A DNA stretch of 64,000 nt from a virus: IMG/VR virus record IMGVR_UViG_3300042335_000796, positions 27,524-91,523 of that record. The stretch is one strand, 5' to 3'. A model generated the notes under the pieces. It saw nothing but the letters and a program-made list of their open reading frames with translations, made no database searches and had not been told where the DNA came from. Shown piece by piece: positions 25,868 to 59,496 of the stretch. Every line of letters begins with the position of its first letter. Position 1 is the stretch's first letter. The position numbers and the translations under genes were made by a program.

Positions 25868-26642
25868 TATTGTACATTTTTCCGACCTACACATTAGAAT
25901 ATTTAAGTATCATGAATTATATCGTGATATTTTGAAAAAAATGTTTACTGAATTTAGGAAAATTAATCCTGATAGGATTGTTTTTACTGGAGATTTGGTA
26001 CATTCTAAAAACCAATTAAGCCCTGAATTAGTTGAAATGGTTATATGGACTTTAAGTGAGAGTTCAAAGATTGCTAAAACAATTCTTATTAGCGGTAATC
26101 ATGATTTTCTAAATTCAAATCTTGAAAGACTTGATACATTATCACCAATTATCTCAGCATTAAACAATGATAATATTGTTTATTATAAAGATAGAGGGGT
26201 TTATGAGGATGAAAATGTTTCTTGGTGTGTTTATTCACAATTTCAGGGTAATGTTCCACCAGATATTAAAGACGCAAAAGGTTTTAAAATTGGTTTATTT
26301 CATGACCCAATTCAAGGATTAAAAACTGATTTGGGGTTTGATTTTGGTGAACATGCATATGATATTGAAAAATTTGATGGTCTTGATATTGTTTTATGTG
26401 GTGATATACATAAACGAGCCACATTTAAAATACCAAATGGTAAACTTGGAGTGATGATTGGGTCAACAATACAACAAAATTTTGGTGAGTCAGTTAAAAA
26501 TCACGGATTTGGTGTGTTTAATATACCGAATTATAAATATGAGTTTGTTGATATTGATAATCCAAGACCTTTTCTATCATTTAAAATTAATGGAATAAAA
26601 GATATTGAGAATGGAACAGAAAAACTTGTCAATCTCGGATAA
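25857..26642 (+). CDS. Mre11/SbcD-like nuclease subunit (gp47-like)
   Basis: 261 residues from the ATG at 25857; a TTG two codons earlier is less likely. Calcineurin-type phosphoesterase motifs appear in order: HFSDLHIR (D-x-H), VFTGDLVHS (GD), ILISGNHDF (GNHD) and LCGDIHKR (GD-x-H). With the Rad50-like protein encoded at 27541 it should form the SbcCD/gp46-gp47 complex, which resects DNA ends for recombination-dependent replication. Confidence 0.9.
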   Translation: MITNIVHFSDLHIRIFKYHELYRDILKKMFTEFRKINPDRIVFTGDLVHSKNQLSPELVEMVIWTLSESSKIAKTILISGNHDFLNSNLERLDTLSPIISALNNDNIVYYKDRGVYEDENVSWCVYSQFQGNVPPDIKDAKGFKIGLFHDPIQGLKTDLGFDFGEHAYDIEKFDGLDIVLCGDIHKRATFKIPNGKLGVMIGSTIQQNFGESVKNHGFGVFNIPNYKYEFVDIDNPRPFLSFKINGIKDIENGTEKLVNLG

Positions 26643-26949
26643 TGAAATAGTAAATGATGTTCTTCAATATGTTTTATTAAATGATATTAAAGATATTGAT
26701 TCATTTACATTGACATGTTTTAAAAATGGATATTTTATCCAAAAATATGGACTATTAAATGAGGAAGCTTCAATAAATATTAAATCAGAAGATAATAAAG
26801 AATTACAAAATAAAATAAACATGTTAACAGAAACAATTCAGCATTTAAAACGTGAAGTTTTAAATAAAGATAATGTTATAAAAGAACAACAAAACAAAAT
26901 AGATAATTTAAGTCAAATTATTTCAAATAAATTATTAAAATTCACATAA
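26611..26949 (+). CDS. Coiled-coil protein, unknown function
   Basis: 112 residues from the ATG at 26611 (MEQKNLSISDN). The C-terminal half (about residues 65-108) is a heptad-rich coiled coil (ELQNKINMLTETIQHLKREV and following). It starts inside the end of the Mre11-like gene and lies between the two subunits of that complex, so a link to it is possible but unproven. Confidence 0.6.
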   Translation: MEQKNLSISDNEIVNDVLQYVLLNDIKDIDSFTLTCFKNGYFIQKYGLLNEEASINIKSEDNKELQNKINMLTETIQHLKREVLNKDNVIKEQQNKIDNLSQIISNKLLKFT

Positions 26950-26951
26950 AA

Positions 26952-27290
26952 ATGGAAAAATTTATAATATGGTCAATTATGCTTTATGGAATCAGTAATA
27001 TACTTGTTTACGGTTCTATATTAAATAGCTTTAGAAATTTTATTGAAAAAATTGGAAATTCTACTATATTAATTATAAGTCCAATTTTTAAGTTTATCAG
27101 AGAAATGCTTAAATGTATGATGTGTACACCTTTTCATTTAGGTTATTTGTCAACTTTTTTTATTTATTCGCCAACATTTGAATATTTTTCATTACCTTTG
27201 TACTATTCTTGGATATTAGATGCTGGGATAGCTTCAGGGGTTGTTTGGGGGATAAATTCAATAATAGAATGGTTTGAAAATAAACATTAA
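26952..27290 (+). CDS. Small membrane protein with CMMC motif (DUF1360-like)
   Basis: 112 residues with about three membrane helices: residues 4-24, a middle segment after LKCMMCTPFHLGYLSTF, and LDAGIASGVVWGINSIIEWF. The pattern of an interfacial C-x2-C-x2-F/P-HLG followed by two helices resembles DUF1360-type phage and Bacillus proteins. No function is known for these. Confidence 0.55.
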   Translation: MEKFIIWSIMLYGISNILVYGSILNSFRNFIEKIGNSTILIISPIFKFIREMLKCMMCTPFHLGYLSTFFIYSPTFEYFSLPLYYSWILDAGIASGVVWGINSIIEWFENKH

Positions 27291-27307
27291 TTTAATATAT
27301 ACATAAC

Positions 27308-27544
27308 ATGCCAAAATCAAGAAAACGCGGTGGTGACAAAGTTCACAGAAGAAGAGTTCAAAATAGAAATAAAAATATCGACACAATGATGAAAACCCAA
27401 CAAAAATTATTTGAACGAGCAATGCTTGAACAAATAAATAAAGTAAGAAACTCAAGTGGTGACACATCAAATGATATAACCACAAGTCAAAATATTAAGT
27501 TAAATACTGAGGGTTTTAACACAAATCTTGCAACAGATTTATGA
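27308..27544 (+). CDS. Small basic protein, unknown function
   Basis: 78 residues with a very basic N-terminus (PKSRKRGGDKVHRRRVQNRN), then a helix. The stop codon overlaps the ATG of the Rad50-like gene. Basic tails of this kind bind nucleic acid. I do not recognise the family. Confidence 0.55.
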   Translation: MPKSRKRGGDKVHRRRVQNRNKNIDTMMKTQQKLFERAMLEQINKVRNSSGDTSNDITTSQNIKLNTEGFNTNLATDL

Positions 27545-29868
27545 TAGATATTGATAAATTAGATAATCCATACGTCCAGGTAATTTGGGAAGATTATTCT
27601 GAAAATTTTACACAAGAACAAATTAAAAGTGTAAAACAATATTTTCAAAATAAATACAACACAAATAATGTTAATGTAATATCTAAAATTAAAAATGATA
27701 TTATTAATGAAACTCAGCAAACTGTTGATGTTTCAATTAACATTATGGATAAAAACTATCAAAAAGAATTAATTAAAAATTATTTAGTTAGTAAAAATTT
27801 TGATAGTTACCAAGAAGATATTATAAAATTAGATAATGAAGTTGAAAACAAAATTGCAGCATCAACAGATGATGTATCAGCATTTAAAAAATGGTATATC
27901 AAAAGAATTGAGTTTTCAAATTTCTTATCATATGGGGATAATCAAGTTTTAGATTTTACAAAATGTAATGGTTTAACTGTTATTAAATCAACACCAGAGA
28001 ATTTTGGAGGAAAAACCGTAATATCTACAGATTTATTGTTGTTTTTATTTTTTAACACAACAACTAAAACATCAAAGGTTGAAGATGTGTTTAATAAATT
28101 TACAGAAAAAGATTATGTTAGAGTAAAAGGTGAAATTACAATTGATGGTGAAGATTATGTAATTGAAAGAAACTTAGAAAGGAAAAAAAGTAAATCTGGA
28201 GATTATAACATAAAAACTTATTTAGAGTTTTTCAAAAAATTACCAAATGGTGAATTACAAAATTTTACAGGTGAACAAAGAAAAGAAACAGAAAATTTCA
28301 TCAAAAATTCAATTGGTGAACAAAATGATTTCTTAATGACAATTTTGACCACAGCTTCAAATCTTGAAGAGCTTTTAGAATCAAAACCAACAACGAGGGG
28401 TCAAATTCTTTCAAGATTTTTGGGTCTTGAGTTCTTAAAGAAAAAGGAAGAAGTTGGTAAAGAATTTTATTCTGAGTTTTCAAAAAGTATGTTATCAAAT
28501 ATATACAATATTGAACAACTTAAACAGGAAATTGAAAATAATCTTGATAAGATATCTGAATATCAAGCTGAAATTAATCAAGCAAAGGTTGTAATTGAAG
28601 ATATTACTGAAAAACTAACTACAGGTAAAGATTATAAGGATAATCTTCTTAAAATGAAGTATAACGATATTGACAAAGATTTGTTAATATTGAACCCTGA
28701 ACATATCAAAAAAGAGATTGATAGTATAAAATATCAGCTTGATAATTCAATACGTGAGCTTGAAAGTTTTGAATTAATTGAGCCTTCAGAATTTTACAAT
28801 GAAGATATTCACGATAAAATTAAGTCAGATATAAATGAGGTTTATAGAAATATTGTTGATGTTGAATCAAAAATAAAAGATATTAAAACTTTACAAAATT
28901 CTGTCAGTGGTGGTGTTAAATGCGAACATTGTGGAATTGATTTAATTAACGCAGCTATAACGCAATCTAAAATTTCAAATTTAGAATCTTTAACAATAAA
29001 TCATGAGGAATTAAAATCTAAAATGGATGAATTATCGGCAAAAGATAATGAGTTTTTAAAGATTAAGAGAGATTTCGATAAATATGAAAAAGATAAACTA
29101 ATTAAAGTCCGTTTAGAATTAAATGTTGAAAGTAATAATTTAAAATATTTAAAAAATGTTGAATTATTAAATCGGTATAATGATGTACAAGATAAAATTT
29201 CTAAAAATAAAGAAATTGAGGCTAAATTAATTAAGGCAAACCTTAGAATTGATGAATTAGAGCGTGATAAAAAGTCTAAAGAGTCAATTATTACCAGTAA
29301 TCAAGTCATGATTAAAAATATTCAAGAAAAGAATGTTAAAAACAATGACTATATTATTAAAATAGGTAAAGAAAACGAGAGGGAAAAAATATATAAAATA
29401 TATTCAGAAATTTTTGGTAAAAATGGTATTACTAAAAATATTATGAAAACTATGATGCCATTAATTAATTCAGAACTTCAGCGTTTATTACAAGATAGTG
29501 CATATTTCAAACTTGAAATCAGAATTTCAGATAAAAATGAAGTAGAATTTTGGATGATAGACAATTCAACGGGCGTTGAAAAACTAATGATTTCTGGGTC
29601 AGGATACGAAAAAACTATAGCATCATTAGCATTGAGGGCTGTTCTTAGTAAAGTTTGTTCACTACCTAAACCAAATATTATTGTAATGGATGAAGTTTTT
29701 GGTAAAATATCAAACGAAAATCTTGAAATGGTTGGTGAGTTCTTTGTAAAAATAAAAGAATATTTTGAAAAAGTTTTCGTAATCTCCCATAATCCGCTTG
29801 TAAACAATTGGGCTGATAGTATTATCAGCATTGAAAAAATTGATAATATTAGTTGTGTTACTCAATAA
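27541..29868 (+). CDS. Rad50/SbcC-like ATPase subunit (gp46-like)
   Basis: 775 residues. The order is an N-terminal extension of about 115 residues, an ATPase lobe starting KRIEFSNFLSYGDNQVLDFT, long coiled coils with a central zinc hook (VKCEHCGIDLI, near residue 463), a second lobe with the signature ISGSGYEKTIASLALRAVLS, Walker B NIIVMDEVFG and the switch histidine VISHNPL. The P-loop reads PENFGGKTV; the usual first glycine is a proline. It pairs with the Mre11-like protein. Long N-terminal extensions are not usual in SbcC. Confidence 0.88.
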   Translation: MIDIDKLDNPYVQVIWEDYSENFTQEQIKSVKQYFQNKYNTNNVNVISKIKNDIINETQQTVDVSINIMDKNYQKELIKNYLVSKNFDSYQEDIIKLDNEVENKIAASTDDVSAFKKWYIKRIEFSNFLSYGDNQVLDFTKCNGLTVIKSTPENFGGKTVISTDLLLFLFFNTTTKTSKVEDVFNKFTEKDYVRVKGEITIDGEDYVIERNLERKKSKSGDYNIKTYLEFFKKLPNGELQNFTGEQRKETENFIKNSIGEQNDFLMTILTTASNLEELLESKPTTRGQILSRFLGLEFLKKKEEVGKEFYSEFSKSMLSNIYNIEQLKQEIENNLDKISEYQAEINQAKVVIEDITEKLTTGKDYKDNLLKMKYNDIDKDLLILNPEHIKKEIDSIKYQLDNSIRELESFELIEPSEFYNEDIHDKIKSDINEVYRNIVDVESKIKDIKTLQNSVSGGVKCEHCGIDLINAAITQSKISNLESLTINHEELKSKMDELSAKDNEFLKIKRDFDKYEKDKLIKVRLELNVESNNLKYLKNVELLNRYNDVQDKISKNKEIEAKLIKANLRIDELERDKKSKESIITSNQVMIKNIQEKNVKNNDYIIKIGKENEREKIYKIYSEIFGKNGITKNIMKTMMPLINSELQRLLQDSAYFKLEIRISDKNEVEFWMIDNSTGVEKLMISGSGYEKTIASLALRAVLSKVCSLPKPNIIVMDEVFGKISNENLEMVGEFFVKIKEYFEKVFVISHNPLVNNWADSIISIEKIDNISCVTQ

Positions 29869-38133: not shown

Positions 38134-39057
38134 ATGAATTATTACGAAATTTTAGAAGTAAGTAAAGATGCTACGCAAGATGAAATTAAAAAACAATACC
38201 GAAATCTTGCAAAAAAATACCATCCTGATAAAAATCCTGATGGTGAAGTTAAATTTAAAGAAATTACTAAAGCTTATGAGGTTTTATCAAATCCAGATAA
38301 GCGAAAACAATATGACAATCCTAATAGTGGTAAGCCTTTTGTTGACTATGAAGATATTCTCAATAATATGAGAAACCATTTTACGCATCAAAACATGGGT
38401 AAGGAAAATTATGAGCAAGTTATAAATTTAAAAATTACACCTGTAGAATCTTATTTGGGTGTTGATAAAGAGGTTACATATGAATTTTATGATGATTGTG
38501 AAGATTGTAATGGTACAGGGGGTGAAGACATTATTTGTTCAGATTGTAATGGGAAAGGTCAAATTACTGAGACATTTGGTACAAGTTTTATGCAACAAAT
38601 TATAAGTAGAACTTGTCAAAAGTGTTCAGGTAAAGGTCGTACTATAATAAATGAATGTAAAACGTGTTATGGTAATGGTAATAAAATCTCCAAAAAAACT
38701 ATAGTTGTAAACATTCCAAAAAATGTTGATAACGGTAATTATTTACGCTTAAATAATATTTGTGGAGTTTTAAATAAAAGAAATGTAGATTTAATTCTCA
38801 GTATACAATTAATACCTTCAGATAATTTTGAAAAAAATGGTCCTAACTTAATATATAATGCATATTTGAATTTGGAAGATTTAAGTAAAGACTCAATACT
38901 TATTTCGCATCCATCTGGGGATTTAAATGTTAAATTACCTACAGAATTCAATACAAAAATACCATTAAGAATTAAGAATAGGGGTTATATATATGAAAAT
39001 AACCAAATTGGCGATTTATATATAAAATTAGAAGTTAAATTTTTAAAACAAAGTTAA
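38134..39057 (+). CDS. dnaJ: DnaJ-type co-chaperone
   Basis: 307 residues. The J domain has the HPD motif at residues 30-32. A Gly/Phe-rich linker is almost absent. Four zinc-binding knuckles follow: [27 protein letters not shown] and CKTCYGNGN. The C-terminal substrate-binding part is slightly short against 370-residue cellular DnaJ. It stimulates Hsp70 ATPase; no phage DnaK is seen here, so it would act through host DnaK, perhaps in virion assembly or replication-complex remodelling. Confidence 0.93.
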
Positions 39058-47346: not shown

Positions 47347-47694
47347 TCAAAACGACATTTGCAAATTATCACCCACTTTTATTTTAAGTTTATCACATGA
47401 ACCGCCAGCCAATTCTAACACAATATTACCTTCTCCACAGTAATGTTCACATTCTTTTTCATTGCAAGGGGGGCAATTACTGTGTATTTGTGTTATGATA
47501 TTATTTTTTATGAATATAATATCTAAAGGTATTATACAGTTTTTCATCCAATAGCAATGATTGCCGTCATTTTCAACAAATAACATGCCATTAAATGTAT
47601 CATCGAAATTTTTGCGCATCATACCTTCAGCTCTCTCTTTTTTAGACATTACTACTTTAACATCAAAAAAATTATTATTAATTGATACTTTCAT
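47347..47694 (-). CDS. DUF192 family protein
   Basis: 115 residues with the DUF192 (COG1430) signature: RAEGMMRKNF, GMLFVENDGNHCYWMKN, IIPLDIIFIKNN and ELAGGSCDKLKIKVGD. A short extra loop (NCPPCNEKECEHYCGEG) carries five cysteines. DUF192 proteins occur in bacteria and phages; biochemical role unsettled. It is the first gene of the minus-strand operon, diverging from the large RNA locus. Confidence 0.82.
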   Translation of the reverse strand: MKVSINNNFFDVKVVMSKKERAEGMMRKNFDDTFNGMLFVENDGNHCYWMKNCIIPLDIIFIKNNIITQIHSNCPPCNEKECEHYCGEGNIVLELAGGSCDKLKIKVGDNLQMSF

Positions 47695-47714
47695 ATATTT
47701 AAATATGTTGACAC

Positions 47715-47745
47715 TTGACTATTTGAAATTTTCTTTTTAACTTTG
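47715..47745 (+). promoter_or_regulatory. Promoter P1 of the large RNA locus (TTG-N20-TAACTTTG)
   Basis: TTG at 47715-47717, 20 bases, TAACTTTG at 47738-47745. It is preceded by CAC and followed by CAGAACATTTCAGATA. Nearly the same arrangement recurs 111 bases downstream as P2. Confidence 0.75.
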
Positions 47746-47825
47746 CAGAACATTTCAGATACTTAAATCGAAATACGTTCTAAAGTTCAAAACAAAAAAA
47801 ATTGAAAAAGTTTTTTAAAAAACAC

Positions 47826-47856
47826 TTGACAATTAAAAATTTTGTGATTAACTTTG
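47826..47856 (+). promoter_or_regulatory. Promoter P2 of the large RNA locus (TTG-N20-TAACTTTG)
   Basis: TTG at 47826-47828, 20 bases, TAACTTTG at 47849-47856, followed by CAGAACAATTCAGATA. It duplicates P1 including the transcription-start region, a tandem arrangement like that of ribosomal RNA operons. Confidence 0.78.
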
Positions 47857-47887
47857 CAGAACAATTCAGATAAATATTTGAATTAAA

Positions 47888-47898
47888 GTTCTTTGAAA
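47888..47898 (+). promoter_or_regulatory. boxA-like antitermination element
   Basis: GTTCTTTGAAA, followed at once by the hairpin at 47901-47935 (GATAA-GTTTTAAA paired with TTTAAAAC-TTATC). This resembles the boxA/leader arrangement of Bacteroidota rRNA operons, which prevents premature termination on long structured transcripts. Assignment by pattern only. Confidence 0.45.
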
Positions 47899-47956
47899 TT
47901 GATAAGTTTTAAAATTCGTTTAAAACTTGTTTATCACATGTAACAATGGGATAAAC

Positions 47957-48033
47957 GTGCTGGTTGTACAGCACATGGTGACCAATGAATAAACATTGGA
48001 AGTTCAAACTTGGGAAAGTAATTTCCACTCACC
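47957..48033 (+). other. Hairpin plus cloverleaf-like four-way junction in the large RNA
   Basis: GTGCTG/CAGCAC forms a hairpin at 47957-47974. Then GGTGA (47977-47981) pairs with TCACC (48029-48033) and closes three hairpins: CCAATG/CATTGG (47982-47999), AAGT/ACTT (48000-48011, loop TCAA) and GGAAA/TTTCC (48013-48026). All stems are perfect. It ends where the degenerate CRISPR repeat begins. Confidence 0.6.
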
Positions 48034-48266
48034 AAATACCTTTTTATTATTTCAAAGGTTGTTACAACTTAGGCTGGAGTTGATAATTCTGCGATTCTGT
48101 TGTAACAACCCCTAATTTGAAAGGTATATACAACCCCAGATGTCAGGTACACCTCGGCATCACAGTTGTAACAACCCTTAATTTGAAAGGTATATACAAC
48201 GGTGGCAGCAATACAAGCCAAGGAAAAAGAGTTGTAACAACCCTTAATTTGAAAGGTATATACAAC
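48033..48266 (+). CRISPR. CRISPR mini-array, type VI-B-like repeats, no cas genes nearby
   Basis: Three 36-bp repeats lie at 48099-48134, 48165-48200 and 48231-48266. They begin GTTGTAACAACCC and end TTTGAAAGGTATATACAAC; repeats 2 and 3 are identical and repeat 1 differs by one base (CCCC for CCCT). Spacers at 48135-48164 and 48201-48230 are exactly 30 bp. A degenerate unit at 48033-48068 keeps 16 of the last 20 repeat bases and is followed by another 30-bp segment (48069-48098). The GTTG start, CCTT/AAGG inner stem, CAAC end, 36-nt repeat and 30-nt spacer suit type VI-B (Cas13b); some type II-C arrays share the lengths. Promoters P1/P2 favour plus-strand transcription. Confidence 0.88.
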
Positions 48267-49092
48267 CAACAAGCAAAACCTAAAAAAATAAACGAATAAA
48301 AAACTAATTAAACGATAATTGGCCGTGTATGGTCATCAAATAAACCCCGAAAGGGGTATAAAGTGGAGTCAATGTGTTATGATTCTGCGTCTTGGGCAAC
48401 CGAGGTCGAGTACACAAGTGGGATATCATTTTATCTTAAGTATCGAGGGCAACGCTTTAGAGAAAAAGATAAAATGACTTGGCACCGTGGATGTCAAGTT
48501 GAGGTGGGAACATCAATAAGAATAACCCATAGAAATATTGCAAAAAGTATAATTATCCAATTATATTATTGCGTTTTTCAATATGATAGGAAACTTAAAG
48601 CCGTGAGGTAAGATAGAGAACGAGTGGTGTCGCTACTATCCTTGTTAATAACTTACCAAAGTTTTAACATGAAGTAATCTTGAAATATGATGATTGGGAA
48701 ATCATAAGAAGGTGTTAAGTATTTTGTAGTTCAAAAGATTACAAATCTTAAGGTAGACCGCATCTTCTACAATCCACAAACACAAGACTTATTTTTTATT
48801 TGGAAAAAAATACTATAAGCAAAAGTGTCTATCAGGTTAAAATGAAAGGTGCTTACATAGTCGCTGGCTGTCAGTGGCACGTAAAGACCGCAAGTCTGAG
48901 CGTATTTTCATGAAAAACCTCTAATCTCGCAAGGATTAATTGGGGAGGCATCCTCGAAGAGAGTTGAGTATTGATAGAGTAATTTTAACCTCAAGGAGTG
49001 ATTCACCTAAATAATCAGCACTGGAAATTACCGTCCAAAAGATGGTGGATAAGAAGAGAACCAATAATGCTTCAAAAGATTTCCACAAAAAC

Positions 49093-49122
49093 TTGTAATC
49101 TCAGAGTTTTTTTATAATTTTG
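49093..49122 (+). promoter_or_regulatory. Bacteroidota-type promoter (TTG-N19-TAATTTTG)
   Basis: TTG at 49093-49095, 19 bases, TAATTTTG at 49115-49122. The next ATG is at 49127, so the message would be leaderless or nearly so. Confidence 0.7.
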
Positions 49123-49126
49123 TACC

Positions 49127-49438
49127 ATGCAAAACAAAAAAACAAATAAGTCTGCAGAAGTGACAATGAATGTCAACCATACAATATTTATTCGCCATGA
49201 ACAATTTGGCGAAATTTTAAAAGAAACTTTTGTTAATTCTACACAGTTTAAATTGTTTCTTAAAGCTGTTAATGGTTGTTTCTTAACTTCTGGAGATTTG
49301 ACTTTCTTCAATTCTGATACATTTTTTATTCATATACCATTTAAAATATTAAAAGATTCTGTAATAACAACATCTTTTGATATTTCTTCTGAAATTGAAT
49401 CAATGATAAAGAAATCTGAATTGGAAATGAAAGTTTAA
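49127..49438 (+). CDS. Unknown protein, probably leaderless mRNA
   Basis: 103 residues, alpha/beta, polar N-terminus (QNKKTNKSAEVTMNVNHTIF) and acidic C-terminal helix (EIESMIKKSELEMKV). Its start is fixed by the promoter just upstream. It adjoins the large RNA and could be an accessory gene to it; no evidence for this beyond position. Confidence 0.6.
   Translation: MQNKKTNKSAEVTMNVNHTIFIRHEQFGEILKETFVNSTQFKLFLKAVNGCFLTSGDLTFFNSDTFFIHIPFKILKDSVITTSFDISSEIESMIKKSELEMKV

Positions 49439-58179: not shown

Positions 58180-59496
<1,317 letters not shown>

Follow-up and report, generated by a model that had tools for sequence, protein, structure and literature searches.

Which effector would use the guides of a phage CRISPR array that has no effector gene beside it? 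This question is raised by a short array in G000, a 91.5-kb IMG/VR virus contig, whose final 64 kb form the window, i.e. the whole stretch of DNA presented here. An earlier note on this DNA described the locus as a cas-less type VI-B (Cas13b) mini-array with a degenerate flanking repeat, and proposed that it provides a host Cas13b with guides or decoy crRNAs. That reading overlooked a tracrRNA located immediately 5' of the array and a GOLLD RNA located immediately 3' of it. The features of the locus are as follows.

47347-47694, minus strand: DUF192 gene, bordering the slot upstream
47715-47745, plus strand: promoter-like sequence 1, Bacteroidota-type, TTGA-N19-TAACTTTG, first copy of a 51-nt direct repeat
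47826-47856, plus strand: promoter-like sequence 2, Bacteroidota-type, TTGA-N19-TAACTTTG
47888-47898, plus strand: boxA-like element GTTCTTTGAAA, conserved before tracrRNAs, GOLLD and tRNAs in related phages
47953-48044, plus strand: tracrRNA core of the Cas12f1/V-U3 type (covariance model match, 82.3 bits, E 8.6e-18)
48036-48068, plus strand: tracrRNA anti-repeat, complementary to the repeat; formerly read as the degenerate repeat
48099-48134, plus strand: CRISPR repeat 1, 35/36, C for T at position 14
48135-48164, plus strand: spacer 1, CCCAGATGTCAGGTACACCTCGGCATCACA, 57% GC
48165-48200, plus strand: CRISPR repeat 2, 36/36
48201-48230, plus strand: spacer 2, GGTGGCAGCAATACAAGCCAAGGAAAAAGA, 47% GC
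48231-48266, plus strand: CRISPR repeat 3, the last, 36/36
48267-48296, plus strand: possible third guide, A-rich, perhaps a mere linker
48310-49110, plus strand: GOLLD RNA; the Rfam RF02032 model covers 48707-49107 and phage GOLLD homology begins at 48310

The mini-array and its spacers

The presence of a CRISPR mini-array on this phage contig is confirmed. Three repeats, one of them with a single change, alternate with two spacers at a period of exactly 66 nt (36-nt repeats and 30-nt spacers), and the repeats are far above chance, since nothing outside the array matches the repeat at better than 23/36. Both spacers are GC-richer than the window as a whole (27% GC). Repeat 3 is followed by an A-rich segment without a terminal repeat. 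Because Cas12 crRNAs carry their guide 3' of the repeat and require no terminal repeat, the segment may be a third guide. No exact copy of the array repeat was found in other viral contigs. Spacers 1 and 2 had no match in the loci compared, no exact 21-nt match in viral contigs, and no convincing protospacer in phages, plasmids or 396 genomes of one order; among the genome matches listed, nearly all come from the A-rich third segment and not from spacer 1 or 2.

A tracrRNA of the Cas12f1 type upstream of the array

The 280 nt 5' of the array are homologous to the matching region of three phage contigs, G010, G009 and G012 (E 2e-21 to 3e-13). All four contigs share the same order of elements: after a promoter-like sequence and GTTCTTTGAAA come two hairpins, the closing stem GTGA/TCAC and then CACTCACCAAATACCTTT. 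The tracrRNA core of G000 is made up of the hairpin GTGCTGGTTGTACAGCAC, which reads GGGCTGGTTGTACAGCCC in the other three contigs, the hairpin CCAATGAATAAACATTGG, the GTGA/TCAC closing stem and the conserved CACTCACCAAATACC. The covariance model (R1) that yields the 82.3-bit match was built from four other phage tracrRNA units with the G000 unit left out; its second-best score in the window is 17.7 bits, and the same search returned no match in nine Cas13b-type control loci. When five units are aligned, two-sided compensatory changes appear in 13 of the 26 consensus pairs. For the other phage loci, tracrRNAs were recognized by homology and covariation instead of anti-repeat pairing scores.

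The G000 tracrRNA carries an anti-repeat in two parts. The 8-nt ATACCTTT (48036-48043) is complementary to repeat positions 22-29, and the 15-nt AAAGGTTGTTACAAC (48054-48068) to repeat positions 1-15. The computed repeat:anti-repeat duplex has an energy of -26.0 kcal/mol, compared with -8.4 ± 1.8 kcal/mol for shuffled anti-repeats. This segment accounts for the degenerate flanking repeat described before: the copy at 48033-48068 is indeed in register, but over its full length it matches the repeat at only 20/36, which is the background level, and it is better explained as the anti-repeat. Its 3' half, however, matches the repeat directly (16/20), and G012 has the same 30-nt spacing, so that an initial repeat of nearly palindromic form may have given rise to the anti-repeat. 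The components of a V-F1 guide module are present at this locus: a tracrRNA of the family beside the array, a complementary anti-repeat, and regular repeats and spacers.

Extra tracrRNA units are also located away from the main array in G009, G010 and G011 (L175, 10341-10431; L180, 5877-5966; L179, 9163-9221), and the RNA unit is thus modular. The extra unit in G010 is followed by one repeat and one guide, and that in G009 by no clear repeat.

Assignment of the array to type V-F1

The repeat alone cannot separate the candidate types, because the 36/30 geometry and the GTTG...ACAAC ends, both found here, occur with Cas13b as well as with Cas12f1 arrays and are hence not diagnostic. The repeat does resemble cas13b-linked repeats, with up to 31/36 identity to the best VI-B repeats (Bacteroidota Cas13b), but the best Cas12f1-linked repeats (phage and Bacteroidota) are almost as near at 30/36, and the comparison is not decisive. 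The final 16 nt of the repeat agree at 15-16/16 with the arrays of G009, G010, G012 and Parapedobacter, versus 11-14/16 with the VI-B set compared.

A signature pattern for this geometry (TTTGnnnGGTnnnnACAAC, 29-31 nt, GTTG-N13-TTTG) matched 15 other viral contigs and 110 stretches of bacterial genomes; among the bacterial matches listed, most are from Bacteroidota, including Bergeyella zoohelcum with its Cas13b. Of the 15 viral contigs only G002 has Cas13b, which was found neither in the record of G000 nor in the other 14. A Cas12u/TnpB-like gene lies 50-310 bp from the array in 13 of these 14, several of the 13 (G001, G003, G014 and G015) being near-copies of one phage; in the remaining contig, G004, the array sits at the contig end. 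The signature is thus common to two unrelated effectors. As a result, 36/30 geometry with a GTTG...ACAAC signature is not proof of Cas13b in phages, where most such arrays examined here adjoin Cas12f/TnpB-like genes, while the tracrRNA model R1 tells Cas12f-type from Cas13b-type arrays. The Cas13b of G002 is complete and lies beside an array of at least eight repeats (L132; G002 26068-28971), which is perhaps a prophage or host flank.

To our knowledge, Cas13b systems use no tracrRNA. The covarying tracrRNA upstream of the G000 array, homologous to those of phage Cas12f1 loci, therefore places the unit with high confidence in type V-F1 (formerly V-U3) and not in type VI-B as first proposed. 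The ideas of RNA targeting and of a Cas13b decoy lose their basis with that assignment, whereas the phage may still supply guides to an effector in trans. It is highly improbable that the array is of type VI-B after all and that a host Cas13b receives guides or decoy crRNAs from the phage, the upstream hairpin being a VI-B leader-repeat hairpin. The geometry and the 31/36 identity of the repeat would fit, leaders of such arrays can pair with the first repeat (PMC13187072), and 47940-47946 is able to pair with the degenerate repeat; but a leader-repeat hairpin leaves the homology with Cas12f1 loci unexplained, the upstream RNA is absent from the Cas13b loci searched, and both the neighbouring genes in viral contigs of the same signature and the final 16 nt of the repeat point away from Cas13b.

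Absence of an effector gene and completeness of the record

In G009, G010 and G012, whose tracrRNAs are clearly homologous to that of G000, a Cas12u3 gene, that is Cas12f1 (V-U3), is separated from the array by 50-210 bp. Judged by their sequences, the Cas12u3 proteins of G009-G013 look active, as they retain the RuvC acidic residues D, E and D (in the motif GIDxG or GVDLG, as the E of ED/EN, and as the final D). By contrast with these loci, searches of all 91.5 kb of G000 for Cas13b, Cas12u3/Cas12f and the TNB domain found no member of these families, and the description of the locus as cas-less holds to this extent. Neither Cas12u3 nor the tracrRNA was found in 42 further contigs of close relatives, which were chosen by their baseplate protein and many of which are fragments; the unit is thus patchily distributed.

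No terminase was found in the G000 record. A terminase is present in all six checked records of more than 160 kb and in none of the four records of 140 kb or less, G000 among them, and the baseplate protein of G000 shares 69% and 56% identity with its counterparts in contigs of 309 and 311 kb. The missing terminase and this baseplate kinship indicate that G000 is probably a fragment of a larger phage genome, and an effector gene may therefore lie elsewhere in that genome. Such a distant position would be unusual, since the effector adjoins the array in every comparable locus. The window also encodes a phage-borne adenylosuccinate synthetase (58204-59496) and a DnaJ-like protein (38134-39057).

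Linkage of the unit to GOLLD RNA

The GOLLD match at 48707-49107 scores 311.7 bits against an Rfam gathering score of 150. The array is not part of GOLLD proper, as the GOLLD homology begins at 48310, 44 bp 3' of the end of the last repeat. On the plus strand of 47600-49200, the only Bacteroidota-type promoter matches are those at 47715 and 47826, both 5' of the tracrRNA, and elements similar to the second are found 5' of the tracrRNAs in G009 and G010. A simple scan found no plus-strand terminator between the array and GOLLD. With promoter matches confined to the region 5' of the tracrRNA and no terminator-like site in the gap, the tracrRNA, the array and GOLLD probably share a single transcript. 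In a relative, L139, a Bacteroidota-type promoter match and GTTCTTTGAAA stand directly before GOLLD, whereas G000 has no promoter match at that place. The element GTTCTTTGAAA is similar to boxA of stable-RNA operons, and by this analogy it may have a role in antitermination.

A CRISPR guide unit is hereby tied to GOLLD, an RNA of unknown function. GOLLD is also present in the array-bearing contigs G001, G006, G008 and G015, but far from the array, and in G006 a tmRNA gene lies near GOLLD (L133, 63-481).

Proposed function and alternatives

Because the tracrRNA travels with the array, the G000 unit would be self-sufficient as a source of guides for a tracrRNA-dependent effector. We consider it probable, with moderate confidence, that this V-F1 tracrRNA and mini-array, having no effector gene at the locus, supply guides to a Cas12f in trans. 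We infer co-transcription, processing, effector source, target and outcome along the following lines. Transcription from one promoter region would pass through the boxA-like element, the tracrRNA and the three repeats, with their two or three guides, before entering GOLLD. The anti-repeat of the tracrRNA would pair with each repeat to give a dual RNA, which would load a Cas12f-type effector provided by the unassembled part of the large phage genome, by the host or by a co-infecting element, and the loaded effector would be directed to DNA matching the spacers. Weighing against supply in trans are the lack of an effector in 91.5 kb and in the close-relative contigs, the adjacent effector of all comparable loci and the lack of a protospacer for spacers 1 and 2, while the changed first repeat together with the missing effector would also suit a decaying relic.

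A further reading, possible but rather unlikely, is that the unit is a stand-alone, effector-free tracrRNA-CRISPR cassette built into the GOLLD transcript. The phage would then make guides for the Cas12f of its host or of a rival phage together with GOLLD, a giant oligomeric RNA, and might also store or release the guides along with that RNA.

Chromosomal loci of Bacteroidota raise a further alternative. Parapedobacter, Sphingobacterium and Pedobacter encode 370-aa Cas12u3-like proteins that have lost the RuvC acidic residues and the C-terminus, and such a dead protein can be accompanied by several tracrRNA/mini-array units, as in L076 (4985-6921), where a sigma-like ORF adjoins its gene; L022, L056, L059, L087, L097, L117 and L118 are further loci with such a protein and such units. 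We take these loci to be nuclease-dead Cas12f and sigma systems, recently described for RNA-guided transcription. The phage RNA unit might parasitise a nuclease-dead Cas12f of this kind in its host and redirect transcription to sites matching the phage spacers. The repeats of these loci have almost the same 3' end, AATTTGAAAGGTATATACAAC, and their tracrRNA-like sequences do match the phage model; but these matches reach only 15-25 bits, the chromosomal loci have a tracrRNA core shorter by about 30 nt, and no spacer target was found; we regard this parasitism as unlikely.

It is quite unlikely that the unit is a relic, i.e. what is left of a V-F locus after loss of its effector, with the GOLLD promoter carrying it along. 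The absent effector, the short array, spacers without targets and one mutated repeat would all be expected of a relic, but two of the three repeats are identical, the tracrRNA structure is intact by covariation, the duplex with the repeat is strong, and promoter-like and boxA-like elements are present. Very unlikely is an RNA anti-CRISPR, in which the tracrRNA-repeat RNA would act as a decoy occupying a host or rival Cas12f regardless of the spacers: the unit has few repeats and no effector, and decoys of this sort are known for other types according to PMC13187072, which cites Camara-Wilpert et al. 2023, but the complete tracrRNA, the intact repeats and the distinct 30-nt spacers resemble a working guide source, and nothing indicates which Cas12f would be the victim.

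Comparison with known systems

The G000 unit shares with type VI-B arrays the 36/30 geometry, the GTTG...ACAAC ends and a TTTG..GG core, and differs from them in its tracrRNA, as 0/9 of the VI-B loci tested match the tracrRNA model. With the nuclease-dead Cas12f and sigma-like loci it has in common the 3' end of the repeat, the tracrRNA core motif CACTCNCTAAATAC and the mini-array form, whereas those loci are chromosomal and have a shorter tracrRNA and a dead effector.

Phage V-U variants and V-F subtypes have been reported in huge phages (PMC7162821). Like phage V-F1/V-U3 (Cas12f1, Cas12u3) loci, which occur in large tailed phages with a related baseplate protein in several, G000 has 36-nt repeats, 30-nt spacers and a homologous tracrRNA with its anti-repeat 5' of the array; unlike them, it has no effector gene by the array or elsewhere in the record, and its unit lies directly before GOLLD. 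Effector-less phage arrays, which are thought to rely on host Cas proteins (PMC7162821), likewise lack an interference gene and have repeats like those of host arrays, but the G000 array is accompanied by a tracrRNA and its record is incomplete. As in other phage GOLLD loci (RF02032), GOLLD lies in a phage contig in G000 (48310-49110). The difference is in the slot between DUF192 and GOLLD, which in L139 contains, besides a tRNA, a promoter-like sequence belonging to GOLLD itself and no CRISPR unit, and in G000 contains the tracrRNA and array. GOLLD itself is an oligomeric RNA (PMC12286853).

Both V-U/V-F systems and arrays without an effector have thus been reported from phages before, and no precedent for an orphan tracrRNA-array joined to GOLLD was found in the literature searched. 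This orphan unit joined to GOLLD is the new element, and G000 offers a directly testable example of a phage-borne tracrRNA with guides but without an effector.
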